Assembly: GCF_002140175.1 (NCBI RefSeq)
Contig: NZ_NGMO01000002.1
Coordinates: forward strand, 105,177 to 160,475
DNA: 55,299 bases
Origin: Candidatus Enterococcus wittei
GTDB lineage: Bacteria > Bacillota > Bacilli > Lactobacillales > Enterococcaceae
Reading direction: 5' to 3'
This document shows, one piece after another, positions 48,550 through 51,769 of this stretch; position 1 is the first letter of the stretch, and each line of letters starts with the position of its first letter. The notes beneath the pieces were generated by a model, which was given only the letters and a program-made list of their open reading frames with translations, had not been told where the DNA came from and did no database searches. The translations under genes and the position numbers were made by a program.

Positions 48550-48609
48550 TGATGAACAAAGATTGTTTGTCAAACGTTGTTGGTGAAGAGAAATCTTAGA
48601 ATGATTGGT

Positions 48610-48648: not shown

Positions 48649-48814
48649 GGTTGGGACAGAAGTGATTAACCTCGAGAAATTAGATGGGATTCACGAAAAA
48701 TGTTTTACAAATTTTTGTGAATTTCTGCTTATTTTCGAAAAAGTTGCTTCTGATTCCGCTGTTTATACGTATTTAGAGCGTGAAATAAGAGTAAATCATA
48801 CTTTTGTCCGATGC
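48649..48814 (+). repeat. Interspersed ~170-nt repeat, copy B
   Basis: Homologous to copy A at 7051-7222 in the other orientation: GGTTGGGACAGAAGTG at the start, GAGAAATTAGA, GGATTCACGAAAAATG, TTGCTTCTG, CGTATTTAGAGCGTG, and CTTTTGTCC at the end. The terminal hairpin is more degraded than in copy A. Confidence 0.8.
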
Positions 48815-48856: not shown

Positions 48857-48901
48857 AAAAAAGAGAGAGGTCACTACAATATTGTAGTGATCTCTCTTTT
48901 T
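48857..48901 (-). terminator. Original terminator of the YfhO-family gene, now displaced
   Basis: Near-perfect dyad centred at 48880/48881 (TCACTACAAT-ATTGTAGTGA with GAGAGA arms), followed on the minus strand by TTTTTT. Joining 48902 to 51904 (removing the ISL3 and one 8-bp repeat) places it directly after the stop codon of the gene now ending at 51901. Confidence 0.8.
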
Positions 48902-48902
48902 A
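48895..48902. repeat. 8-bp target duplication of ISL3, left copy
   Basis: TCTTTTTA, identical to 51896-51903 and directly abutting GGCTCT of the element end. Confidence 0.85.
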
Positions 48903-48980
48903 GGCTCTTTGTCAAACACACATGAATTCGCAAACTCATTCACCCTGAAGAATGAAAGGTAAGATTGTAGTACAATTATA

Positions 48981-49157
48981 GGGGAAAGGAAAAAAGCCGC
49001 CATTATTTTGGAAAAGCAAGTGATGCCGATTGTCAAACTGGCTTGCTTTATTTCTCGAGAACCTTGAAATATTGCCAATGAGCATGTGTATAAAAATTTG
49101 ATTTTACATGAAATAAAGCACTCCTTTCCTAAAATCATGGGAAAGGAGTGCCTTTTT
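48981..49157 (+). ncRNA. Candidate bridge RNA of the IS110 element
   Basis: The non-coding left end contains a stem AAAGCAAG/CTTGCTTT (49013-49020 with 49042-49049) whose 21-nt loop holds TTGTCAAAC (49030-49038), identical to the target strand just left of the insertion. Further on, 49083-49110 (CATGTGTATAAAA...TTTTACATG) can fold and contains GTATAAAA, as at the element's right end (50395-50402), and CATGTGT, complementary to its left end (48918-48924). Order and size resemble known IS110 bridge RNAs (target loop, donor loop, then recombinase). The transcript ends are guesses. Confidence 0.5.
49118..49151 (+). promoter_or_regulatory. Perfect hairpin masking the IS110 recombinase ribosome-binding site
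   Basis: GCACTCCTTTCC (49118-49129) pairs without mismatch with GGAAAGGAGTGC (49140-49151); AAAGGAG, the Shine-Dalgarno for the ATG at 49158, is in the 3' arm. CTTTTT follows, so it may also terminate transcription entering from outside. Confidence 0.8.
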
Positions 49158-50288
49158 ATGGAAATCATTTACGAATGCTGTGCTGGATTAGATGTCCATC
49201 AAAGTAATGTTGTTGCTTGTGTTTTACAAGGTCCGCTTACTTCTACCAGACCAAAAAAACATCTACAAAAATTTGATACGACCACCAAAGGATTATTAGC
49301 CCTACATGAATGGCTAACGGATTTTGATTGTGAGATTGTCGCTATGGAAAGTACAGGTATTTATTGGAAACCGGTTTGGCACATTCTTCAAGGAAATTTC
49401 GACTTAGTTCTAGCTAATCCGTATAAAATTAAAAATATTCCTGGGCAAAAAACGGATAAAAAAGATGCAAGTTGGATTGCTAAGTTGCTGCGAGTAGGTT
49501 TGATTCCCAAAAGTTTTGTTCCAGAGGAACCTATACAAGATTTGCGTGAACTCACACGGTTAAGAAAAATGTGGATCGAATCTAGAAATCGAGAAAAGAA
49601 TCGCGCGCACAAAATTTTACAGACTGCCGGAATTAAAATAACTTCTTACATGACAGATATATTCGGATTATCTGGAAGAAATTTATTAAATCTATTGATT
49701 AATGAGGAAGATATTACTGCAGAAAAAGTTGAAGCGGCTGTTTATACTTCTTTAAAATTTAAAGTGCCGGAATTAGTGGAAGGACTTACTGGCTTTTTCA
49801 GAAGTCATCACAAGTTTTTATTGGCACAAATTTTAGATGTTATTGATATGTATAACAGTAAGATTGGTGAACTAGAAACCAAAATAGCCGAATATTTACT
49901 TCCTTACCAAAAACAGATGGACAATTTATTAACGATCCCAGGAATTAGTACGGATTCAGCTGCTGTAATTATCTCTGAGTTTGGCATTCATATGAATCAG
50001 TTTTCTTCTGCAGAAAGATTAGCCTCATGGGTTGGTCTGTGTCCTGGAAACAATGAAAGTGCTGGGAAAAGACGCTCTACGAGAATTTCCAAAGGAAATG
50101 CTTATGCAAAGAGGGTCTTATGCCAATGTGCCTATTCAGCTTGTAAATCTAATCATCAGAGATTCAAAAACTATTATCAAAGAATCTGTAGAAATCGAGG
50201 CGGTAAGCGTGCGATAGTGGCAGTTGCTCATCTTATTACTAGAATCATTTACTATATGCTTTTGAGAAATGAAGTCTATCACGAATAA
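49158..50288 (+). CDS. IS110-family recombinase (transposase)
   Basis: RNA-guided DNA recombinase, 376 aa. The N-terminal RuvC-like DEDD domain has Asp12 (AGLDVHQ), Glu64 (AMESTG), and Asp100/Asp103 (KTDKKDA). The C-terminal Tnp domain has the candidate nucleophile Ser301 in GNNESAGKRRST. A coiled-coil linker lies between. All key residues are present, so it is probably active. The ATG at 49158 has GGAG 9 nt upstream, inside the 3' arm of a perfect hairpin; the frame runs 24 codons further upstream through that hairpin and is not used. A candidate promoter is TTGAAA (49064-49069), 17 nt, TGTATA. Confidence 0.95.
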   Translation: MEIIYECCAGLDVHQSNVVACVLQGPLTSTRPKKHLQKFDTTTKGLLALHEWLTDFDCEIVAMESTGIYWKPVWHILQGNFDLVLANPYKIKNIPGQKTDKKDASWIAKLLRVGLIPKSFVPEEPIQDLRELTRLRKMWIESRNREKNRAHKILQTAGIKITSYMTDIFGLSGRNLLNLLINEEDITAEKVEAAVYTSLKFKVPELVEGLTGFFRSHHKFLLAQILDVIDMYNSKIGELETKIAEYLLPYQKQMDNLLTIPGISTDSAAVIISEFGIHMNQFSSAERLASWVGLCPGNNESAGKRRSTRISKGNAYAKRVLCQCAYSACKSNHQRFKNYYQRICRNRGGKRAIVAVAHLITRIIYYMLLRNEVYHE

Positions 50289-50433
50289 GAACCACTGCTC
50301 TTTGAAATTTTTAGATTCTTAATTTTTATGGAGGAGGGTAGTTTTTTTTTGCTTTTTTTCTAGTTGTTTCGTACATAGGTGCGGTGAAGCTTTCGTATAA
50401 AACGATGTTGGTGAAGAGAAATCCTAGAATGAT

Positions 50434-50471
50434 TGGTGAACAGAAAGAACTATTTTTCTTTCTGTTCCTTT
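50434..50471 (-). terminator. Hairpin downstream of the ISL3 transposase
   Basis: GAACAGAAAGAA (50438-50449) pairs with TTCTTTCTGTTC (50457-50468). It lies just past the transposase stop on the minus strand; the T-run is better on the plus strand. Confidence 0.5.
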
Positions 50472-50473
50472 TT

Positions 50474-51769
50474 TTATTTTATGAGTAATGCTTTCCCATG
50501 CCGAATCATGATTCGTAATTTAAAGTTGTAAAAGCTTCGGAACCCATAGGCATTTCGTTTTAATACCTTGATATGATTGTTCAAACACTCCAAAGGGCCA
50601 TTTGAGTAGCCATAACGTAGGGCGTTCTCGATTTGTGGAAGAAACTTTTTAAAGGTTTTCAAAGTTCTATCATAGATTTCAGGAAGGTCTGTTTTTCCCA
50701 CATTTAAATATTCTTTAAACGTGTCAATTTCCCGCTTTTTAACTGCATAAAGTAGATTTTGATAGAGTTGATAACCAGAGTGTAGACTAGGACAGTCTCT
50801 AAGAAGGCGATCGACTATTTCGGTTTCAGTTAAATACTCTTTAAAACCGGCTCGCCAAGTGCGTTTGTCATAATCTAGTTTTCCTTCTTCTTTTTGTAAA
50901 AGTTTCCAGTAACGTTTTAGCTTCCTACCTAGGCTTTTTTGAGAAGAAGAAGGATGTTTAAGCAACCGATTTGTTTCTTTGATTCGTTGATTGCGAAATG
51001 TTCTACCAATATGCTGGACAATATGGAATCGATCAATAATCAGTTTCGCGTTTGGAAATAGCTTTTTCACTAAGGAAACATAAGGTGCATACATATCAAT
51101 AACGATCCATTGAACCGCCTCTCGAACTTCTGATGAGAAGCGCAAAAAGTAACGTTCTAGATAGGGAAGGCGTCGATTTTCTAAAATATCCAGTAGTTCA
51201 TGGGTGTCACCATCCATCATAATGAAGCTCATGGCGCTAGACACACTACGAACAGACTTAAATTCATCGAAACATAAAGTTTTTGGTAAGCTTTGTTTCA
51301 AGGGATTCAATGGACGATAAAATTTTTTCATGATTCGATAAACGGAAGAGACAGAAATATTTTTTTGGTAGGCAATTTCGGTCATTGAAGTGTTCTTCTT
51401 TAAACGAGTGACGACAGACCAACGGACCTTTTGACTAATAAAACAGTGCTTTTCAGCAACCGAAGTATCGGCAACAAAGGTTTTATGACAAGACTTACAT
51501 TTAAAGCGTTGTTTCTTCAATTCTAAATAAGTTCGGTATTCAGAAACATCATTGAGTAACAACCGAACGGTTGTCGTCCCCCAATGGATAAGCTGAGAGG
51601 GGACGACACAGTGGCAATGAACACATTTTTCAGGTGAATAGCGAAGCCTCCCACGATAGATCATGCAAATTTGGCCTTTGTACTTTTCTTTCGTTAAGCA
51701 ATTTTCCTCAAAATGGATATTTAGGTCTAGAATATTTAGAGTATCTTTGATAAGCTGAGTATAAGACAT
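50474..51769 (-). CDS. ISL3-family transposase
   Basis: The 431-aa protein has an N-terminal zinc-finger (CVHCHC...CKSC), a helix-turn-helix, and a DDE domain with Asp168 (LCFDEF), Asp225 (IVIDMYAPY) and Glu394 (NGPLECLNN). GGAGG lies 7 nt before the ATG. It looks intact, but one inverted repeat of its element is broken by the IS110, so self-mobility is probably lost. Confidence 0.95.
   Translation of the reverse strand: MSYTQLIKDTLNILDLNIHFEENCLTKEKYKGQICMIYRGRLRYSPEKCVHCHCVVPSQLIHWGTTTVRLLLNDVSEYRTYLELKKQRFKCKSCHKTFVADTSVAEKHCFISQKVRWSVVTRLKKNTSMTEIAYQKNISVSSVYRIMKKFYRPLNPLKQSLPKTLCFDEFKSVRSVSSAMSFIMMDGDTHELLDILENRRLPYLERYFLRFSSEVREAVQWIVIDMYAPYVSLVKKLFPNAKLIIDRFHIVQHIGRTFRNQRIKETNRLLKHPSSSQKSLGRKLKRYWKLLQKEEGKLDYDKRTWRAGFKEYLTETEIVDRLLRDCPSLHSGYQLYQNLLYAVKKREIDTFKEYLNVGKTDLPEIYDRTLKTFKKFLPQIENALRYGYSNGPLECLNNHIKVLKRNAYGFRSFYNFKLRIMIRHGKALLIK

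Follow-up and report, generated by a model that had tools for sequence, protein, structure and literature searches.

How does an IS110-family element come to lie precisely inside the end of another transposon, and does the noncoding region ahead of its recombinase gene hold the guide that brought it there? The question is raised by a stretch of 55,299 nucleotides from Candidatus Enterococcus wittei (contig NZ_NGMO01000002.1, positions 105,177 to 160,475; hereafter the window), in which such an element sits in the inverted repeat at the 3' side of an ISL3-family transposase gene. Its recombinase has an N-terminal DEDD_Tnp_IS110 and a C-terminal Transposase_20 domain (95.3 and 87.1 bits against Pfam cut-offs of 29 and 21.3), the domain pair of the IS110 family in the wide sense, and matches NCBIfam NF033542 with 273.4 bits (cut-off 140). 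By coordinates, 241 nt of noncoding sequence stand upstream of the gene and 114 nt between its stop codon and the right end. An initial annotation had proposed a bridge RNA upstream of the recombinase, with a loop that matches the element's own target and precedes the donor loop, and the letters on which it relied hold: the arms AAAGCAAG (49013-49020) and CTTGCTTT (49042-49049) enclose a 21-nt loop (49021-49041) containing TTGTCAAAC (49030-49038), and the same nine letters recur at the left junction (48909-48917), their last C being the element's first base by the ends used here. The analysis below supports that proposal at the level of sequence, with the loop's TTGTCAAA(C) as the left target guide, and adds the missing half: the segment 48982-49130 is very probably the bridge RNA of this element, arranged as right guide, hairpin region, left guide, helix P2 and donor loop (Table 1).

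Table 1. Positions of the element, its target and the predicted RNA features in the window
Feature	Coordinates	Strand	Basis or remark
Left target half, the ISL3 right-hand inverted repeat, GGCTCTTTGTCAAA	48903..48916	+	final two A taken as core
IS110-family element, about 1.49 kb	48917..50402	+	from first base past left core to end of right core
Candidate -10 TACAAT for the RNA	48971..48976	+	read by eye; TATAAT in L032-L034
Probable bridge RNA core, closed by predicted helix P1 (48982-48990 / 49122-49130)	48982..49130	+	159-nt fold
Right target guide CATTATT	49001..49007	+	complement of top strand, r5-r1 then core; flank covariation
Between-guide region, hairpin in most relatives, includes GATG	49010..49027	+	22 of 27 distinct versions with a stem of at least 3 bp
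Left target guide TTGTCAAA	49030..49037	+	same letters as top strand, pairs with bottom strand; flank covariation
Helix P2, 5' arm TGCTTTATTTC	49044..49054	+	covariation
Left donor guide GTATAAAA, same as element right end (50395-50402)	49088..49095	+	right end set by uninterrupted sites in this genome
Helix P2, 3' arm GAAATAAAGCA	49110..49120	+	covariation
Terminator-like hairpin; 5' arm includes P1 3' arm, 3' arm holds recombinase ribosome-binding site	49118..49151	+	fold and scan
IS110 recombinase, 376 aa (DEDD_Tnp_IS110 and Transposase_20)	49158..50288	+	profile matches
Element right end, GTATAA and core AA	50395..50402	+	copy comparison, letters rechecked
Right target half CGATGTTGGTGAAGAG..., continues ISL3 end	50403..50440	+	sequence and copy comparison
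Transposase of the ISL3 element with interrupted right-hand repeat	50474..51769	-	ORF and profile matches

The ends of the element were set within its own genome, by comparing 13 left ends, five right ends (L001-L004 and L012) and six uninterrupted sites. Among the best 40 of 88 candidates scored, the element proper is matched at no fewer than 14 places, 13 of them with a left end and five with a right end; every one of the 13 left ends found stands directly after YTCTTTRTYAAA, and the exact GGCTCTTTGTCAAA precedes eight of them. Since the outer flanks differ among the 13, the copies lie at separate places. The uninterrupted repeats (L015-L020) read GGCTCTTTGTC-AAACGATGTTGG in five cases and GGCTTTTTGTC in L018, and all six can also be read as TTTGTC-AAACGATGTTGG. 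The matches listed for this genome include 11 exact uninterrupted TTTGTCAAAYGATGTTG sites, six of which lie, by coordinates, 65-67 bp past the 3' end of an ISL3-type transposase match, and 27 such transposase matches. Real truncation at nine of the 14 places was considered and rejected: seven run into stretches of N in the assembly, which hide the right ends of these copies, and in the other two (L010 and L014) the break falls at or close to an adaptor-like inverted repeat of CTGTCTCTTATACACATCT, which we take to be a Nextera mosaic end, so that misassembly is likely there; no biological meaning was therefore given to the apparent truncations.

Around the insertion itself, the other end of the same ISL3 copy reads GGCTCTATACTTTTTGATGTTGG (reverse complement) and shares the right target half, not the left, so that the left guide would distinguish the two ISL3 ends. 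A second, diverged ISL3-type right end, TTTGTCAAACGTTGTTGG, stands uninterrupted at 48567-48600, about 350 bp left of the insertion. At 48651-48664, TTGGGACAGAAGTG fits the left (GGGACA) and right (CACTT) guides of relatives of the L051/L053/L056 type, and thus seems to be an empty target of a sister element within the window. Elsewhere, on the E. faecium plasmid NZ_CP044267.1 (L021), the noncoding end and first codons of an 89% identical relative are followed directly by another ISL3-type end.

Relatives were collected by protein searches at set E-value limits and form a sample, with at most 30 loci per search and, in the larger searches, the best four candidates per genome. Counting the genome of the window, they occur in at least 10 of 105 genomes of the family, at least 20 of 395 of the order, at least 11 of 398 of the class and at least 23 of 398 of the phylum; the named contigs among the matches listed belong to Enterococcus, Streptococcus and Proteobacteria. 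The viral contigs searched hold no relative, and the phages gave no DNA match and three protein matches at 28-37%. The main set comprises 61 copies at 44% identity or more, for which 51 left and 48 right flanks were found and 50 and 47 used. Ends of these relatives were fixed by rule and not by target match: going upstream from where the donor guide ends, the nearest CATG at a distance of 170-240 nt was taken and the left end set 4 nt before it, and the right end was set by the first six letters of the donor guide after a TTTTC-like context. Since both were used in finding the ends, the presence of CATG on the left and of the donor guide on the right is true by construction. The left flank of L139 and the right flank of L137, which are two tandem copies forming a dimer, were dropped together with the copies in which a left or right end was not recognised and the duplicates L022-L031 and L047-L049, and L011, L013, L014, L021 and L046 stayed outside the statistics, having too little recombinase for the anchor. 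The 37 distinct RNAs fall into 21 clusters at 85% identity. An unbiased register scan then compared every RNA column with every flank position in four modes of 1,670 registers each, with 400 permutations; such permutations take the guide groups as exchangeable, some of them being related, and the 85% clustering lessens this kinship and does not remove it.

The left flank maps in the same sense to TTGTC within the left guide, with z = 7.5 over 18 clusters, which is the best of 1,670 registers and is followed by its neighbouring registers; the best wrong-strand register for this flank reaches z = 4.1. Left guides agree with their own flanks at 5.20 of 7 positions and with the flanks of others at 2.96, a difference reached in 0 of 20,000 permutations of the 20 distinct guides. 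Together with the 13 of 13 left ends at YTCTTTRTYAAA, this change of loop with flank among relatives places the identity between loop and flank, first pointed out within the window, beyond chance. When related copies with the same loop in unrelated targets were looked for among 50 copies, all six pre-core bases were found matched by the left guide in 37 and five or more in 46. In L091 and L095, GGGCAA stands in both guide and flank, where L059 and its kin have GGGAAA in both, and such joint change is, by sequence comparison, apparently natural reprogramming. Likewise L046 has ATGTCAAA in its loop and in its flank where the window has TTGTCAAA, and seven relatives with GGGACAAA loops (L035, L050, L051, L058, L060, L071 and L094) sit at GGGACA(AA/GA), while L053, L056 and L069, with loops of the same type, show one mismatch to the flank each. 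There are also poorer cases, as L052, whose loop GTGACAAA faces the left flank CACCAAA, and L033, in which one left-guide base has changed with no matching change in the flank. Among relatives at 39-45% identity, where a crude automatic definition took the wrong stretch as loop in several loci (e.g. L064 and L070), the loops still match their own upstream flank at 7.76 of 9 positions and those of others at 6.61 (0 of 20,000 permutations, 38 distinct loops); 44 loci were listed for this set, three of them with no loop, and L054 and L061 belong to the main set as well. The description of the element as dedicated to ISL3 is accordingly right for its own guides and 13 left ends and too wide for its kin, which carry other loops and sit in other, mostly loop-matching targets.

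Where, then, is the second half of the target guide? The initial annotation could not place it because CATTATT lies 5' of the loop, in the reverse of the IS621 order. The right flank maps as a complement to TTATT in this motif (z = 5.3, 19 clusters), a register that ranks first among 1,670 and is followed by three of its neighbours, and the best wrong-strand register has z = 3.5. Right guides fit their own flanks at 2.92 of 5 positions against 1.75 for the flanks of others (0 of 20,000 permutations, 24 distinct guides), and the same-sense reading gives no signal (0.89 own, 1.26 others). No relation to the right flank was seen for the region 3' of the left guide, the place of the right guide in IS621 (3.32 own, 3.47 others), or for the region between the guides (2.97 and 2.97), so that GATG (49022-49025), once considered for this role, falls away as a guide and belongs to the hairpin region. 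At the fixed register, the 47 copies have five of five matches in 6 cases, four in 10, three in 8, two in 9, one in 11 and none in 3, and by these counts per copy the left guide looks strict, while the right one, the weaker half of the target reading, looks less exact or variable in its register. In the window, pairing of CATTATT with AACGATG leaves one mismatch and includes one G-U pair, both falling in CGATG, and the copies L004 (TGATG) and L012 (TGATA) are free of this mismatch, L012 having a different one. The right guides of L032-L034 pair CACCATTT with AAATGGTG at 8 of 8 positions, one register off the fixed one, and the L079 group likewise fits one register over; in L088, L090 and L095 the guide barely matches at the fixed register, and in L091 it has changed from GAGT to GACT together with a flank change from ACTC to AGTC. 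For L032-L034, no uninterrupted target with exactly the expected spacing occurs in their three genomes, where two pattern matches were obtained in one of the three. These right-guide results come almost entirely from the class of the window genome, and those beyond it concern the left guide.

The predicted fold of the 159-nt window RNA contains both P1 and P2 (-38.1 kcal/mol, z = -2.61, one of 200 shuffles equally stable), but it also ties up both guides, the right one in pairing with 49019-49025 and the left one, through four of its bases, with 49039-49042. P2 is the better founded helix. RNAalifold recovers it from 20 sequences with seven of its eight pairs changed on both sides somewhere, its position is unchanged in 19 of 20 rows, 70.4% of its cells are paired as against 55.4% in shuffles, and 38 cells have changed on both sides, neither value being reached in any of 500 shuffles; sliding P2 out of register lowers the pairing to 31-45%. 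An outer helix like P1, of 7-11 bp, is found at a similar place in 13 of 20 rows and shorter or other pairings in seven, so P1 appears less secure than P2, and its full form in particular is a prediction. The 8-bp stem that had been thought to display the loop does not survive this comparison: it is absent from the close relatives L032, L033, L034 and L021, occurs in neither minimum-energy fold (159 or 193 nt), and overlaps P2 with its 3' arm. Nor is the hairpin between the guides well formed in the window version, with only 2 bp (GG/CC).

The 193-nt predicted fold, which includes the downstream hairpin, has neither P1 nor P2; in it the 3' arm of P1 pairs with the 3' arm of the hairpin, which carries AAGGAG ahead of the start codon. 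The terminator-like hairpin is the one such site in 48880-50450, where 0.9 would be expected in shuffles, and a similar hairpin overlapping the ribosome-binding site is present in L032, L033, L034, L021 and L046. On this modelling P1 and the hairpin could form a switch on recombinase translation, in which formation of the bridge RNA would free the ribosome-binding site. On the upstream side, the candidate -10 box is absent from the list given by a consensus promoter scan. The scan of Rfam at gathering scores had one match in the window, an ordinary L17 downstream element (L17DE, RF01708, 45048-45122, 55.1 bits), and no bridge RNA.

A second foldable stretch (49083-49110) had been linked to the two ends of the element. 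It is in fact part of the donor loop inside P2, and its GTATAAAA is identical with the right end in this genome; for the relatives this match is no independent test, because their right ends were found by it. The link of CATGTGT (49083-49089) to the left end, by contrast, is only partly kept. This motif overlaps GTATAAAA. Its reverse complement, ACACATG, stands at the left end of the window element, and the two can pair over 7 nt; CATGTGT was tried as the right donor guide and rejected, since in close relatives whose RNA carries these letters unchanged the pairing survives only in part, L033 and L021 having just CATG or ACATG at the left end. When every RNA column was compared with the left end in search of a right donor guide, no clear series of adjacent registers stood out (best complementary z = 3.8). 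Many of the 18 left ends listed have the form N4-CATG-stem-loop-CACC (48917-48942 in the window), where CATG is part of the end-finding rule; the stem letters vary (GAGGGC/GCCCTC in L050, GGCC/GGCC in L127), and the four bases ahead of CATG differ even between close relatives that share one donor loop.

We propose that helix P1 would open into a junction presenting, from 5' to 3', the right target guide CATTATT, the hairpin region and the left target guide TTGTCAAA, and that P2 would then lead to the donor loop carrying the left donor guide GTATAAAA. Such an RNA would be made from this region, bind the recombinase and direct strand exchange at a putative 2-nt AA core, by which the element would land in one orientation at ISL3 right ends.

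Other explanations have to be weighed against this one. The region might be a bridge RNA of the IS621 type, with the left guide first and the right guide 3' of it, and the 5' signal accidental. That order is the one published for IS621 and ISEc21 (PMC11208160, PMC11187229), and would be expected for an upstream noncoding region; moreover, the right-guide z of 5.3 is not far above the 4.1 of the best wrong-strand register for the left flank. We nevertheless hold it very unlikely, for the region 3' of the left guide is unrelated to the right flank, while the 5' place is unmatched in 20,000 permutations and is the best of its registers with three neighbours next, and IS621 copies show the order opposite to that of the present clade.

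Still less credence is due to the view that the preference for ISL3 comes from spread by ISL3 itself, with composite or hitch-hiking copies in place of targeting, which draws on the abundance in this genome of ISL3-type transposases and of uninterrupted sites, with 27 matches to the former and 11 exact cases of the latter listed. The differing outer flanks of the 13 left ends speak against it, as do the relatives with other loops at other targets. Least credible is that the shared letters arise at the DNA level, from the recombinase or host repair joining short homologies, and that the region is no guide RNA. The core AA and the A-rich flanks are indeed common to donor and target, but the matching loop does not begin until 113 bp into the element, varies among relatives together with the flank and stands beside a covarying RNA helix, and IS110 relatives have been shown to use RNA (PMC11208160, PMC11187229). 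A bridge RNA with the right guide 5' of the left is thus the reading we retain.

With IS621, as described by Durrant et al. 2024 and by Hiraizumi et al. 2024, the present element shares a DEDD and Transposase_20 recombinase, an RNA upstream of the gene, a target loop before the donor loop, a same-sense left guide and an antisense right guide, a 2-nt core (putative here) and a multicopy repeat as target. The two recombinases are 29% identical over 122 aa in their best segment, and the only PDB match of ours above chance level is 8wt6 (E = 6.6e-10). The guides, however, are reversed. In E. coli copies of IS621 the left guide, ATCGGGCCT (L198, L200) or ATCCGGCCT (L199), differs from the flank at one base in every copy and comes before the right guide TGCGTAGAT, which complements nine bases at the right junction of L198; this agrees with the order given for IS621 in PMC11208160 and PMC11208158, and PMC11187229 gives it for ISEc21. 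In the present clade the order is right guide, hairpin region, left guide. The core is AA here (GA, AT, TA or AG at some sites of kin) and CT in IS621, and we draw the target loop as a junction where P1, the hairpin and P2 come together, unlike the separate stem-loop of IS621 in those accounts.

In guide order the element resembles the seekRNA elements of the IS1111 group (ISEc11, ISPa11 and ISKpn4), for which Siddiquee et al. 2024 and PMC11187229 describe the top-strand complement 5' of the bottom-strand match, the reverse being the case in ISEc21; by that account of Siddiquee et al., guide order separates IS1111 from IS110 elements, one IS110 member having been tested. A candidate subterminal inverted repeat, of the kind known from the IS1111 group, is also seen, but short, 5-9 bp as against 7-17 bp in the published description, and 5 bp in the window element. 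Its further letters covary (own 2.63 of 4, others 1.74; 0 of 20,000 permutations, 19 distinct end pairs), while most end pairs, looked at one by one, show no greater likeness than shuffled ends do (for L001, 193 of 300 shuffles are as long) and by rule no repeat is found in L054 and L076. Its two arms stand at unequal distances from the core, 27-39 nt at the left end and 6 nt at the right, unlike in the IS1111 group, and the repeat looks intermediate between IS110 and IS1111. The recombinase has 376 aa here and 330-350 aa in that group, where the noncoding region lies downstream of the gene in the published description. The longer noncoding region upstream of the gene thus places our element with the IS110 group and apart from IS1111, and its guide order sets it apart from IS621 and ISEc21. 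Among the papers listed, a set with few subscription papers and no preprints, the titles and abstract openings mention neither an IS110 element aimed at ISL3 ends nor a reversed order in an element with an upstream RNA. One known element of the superfamily also lands in the end of another transposon; it belongs to another group, uses another host transposon family, and is set apart by its description.

For enterococci, this would be a jumping gene whose guides are set on the end of another jumping gene, and for the engineering of bridge RNAs the clade would offer new natural guide-target pairs and a second geometry. We lean slightly towards regarding it as a third class of bridge RNA, in Bacillota and perhaps Proteobacteria, which would combine an upstream RNA and the guide order of IS1111 with a target loop shaped as a junction and with a short subterminal repeat; this class would form an evolutionary link between IS110 and IS1111 and provide a programmable recombinase with the opposite RNA polarity at its target. 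Because the present clade pairs an upstream RNA with the IS1111 order, the order of the guides can be uncoupled from the position of the RNA, a point with bearing on how one of the IS110 and IS1111 groups gave rise to the other.
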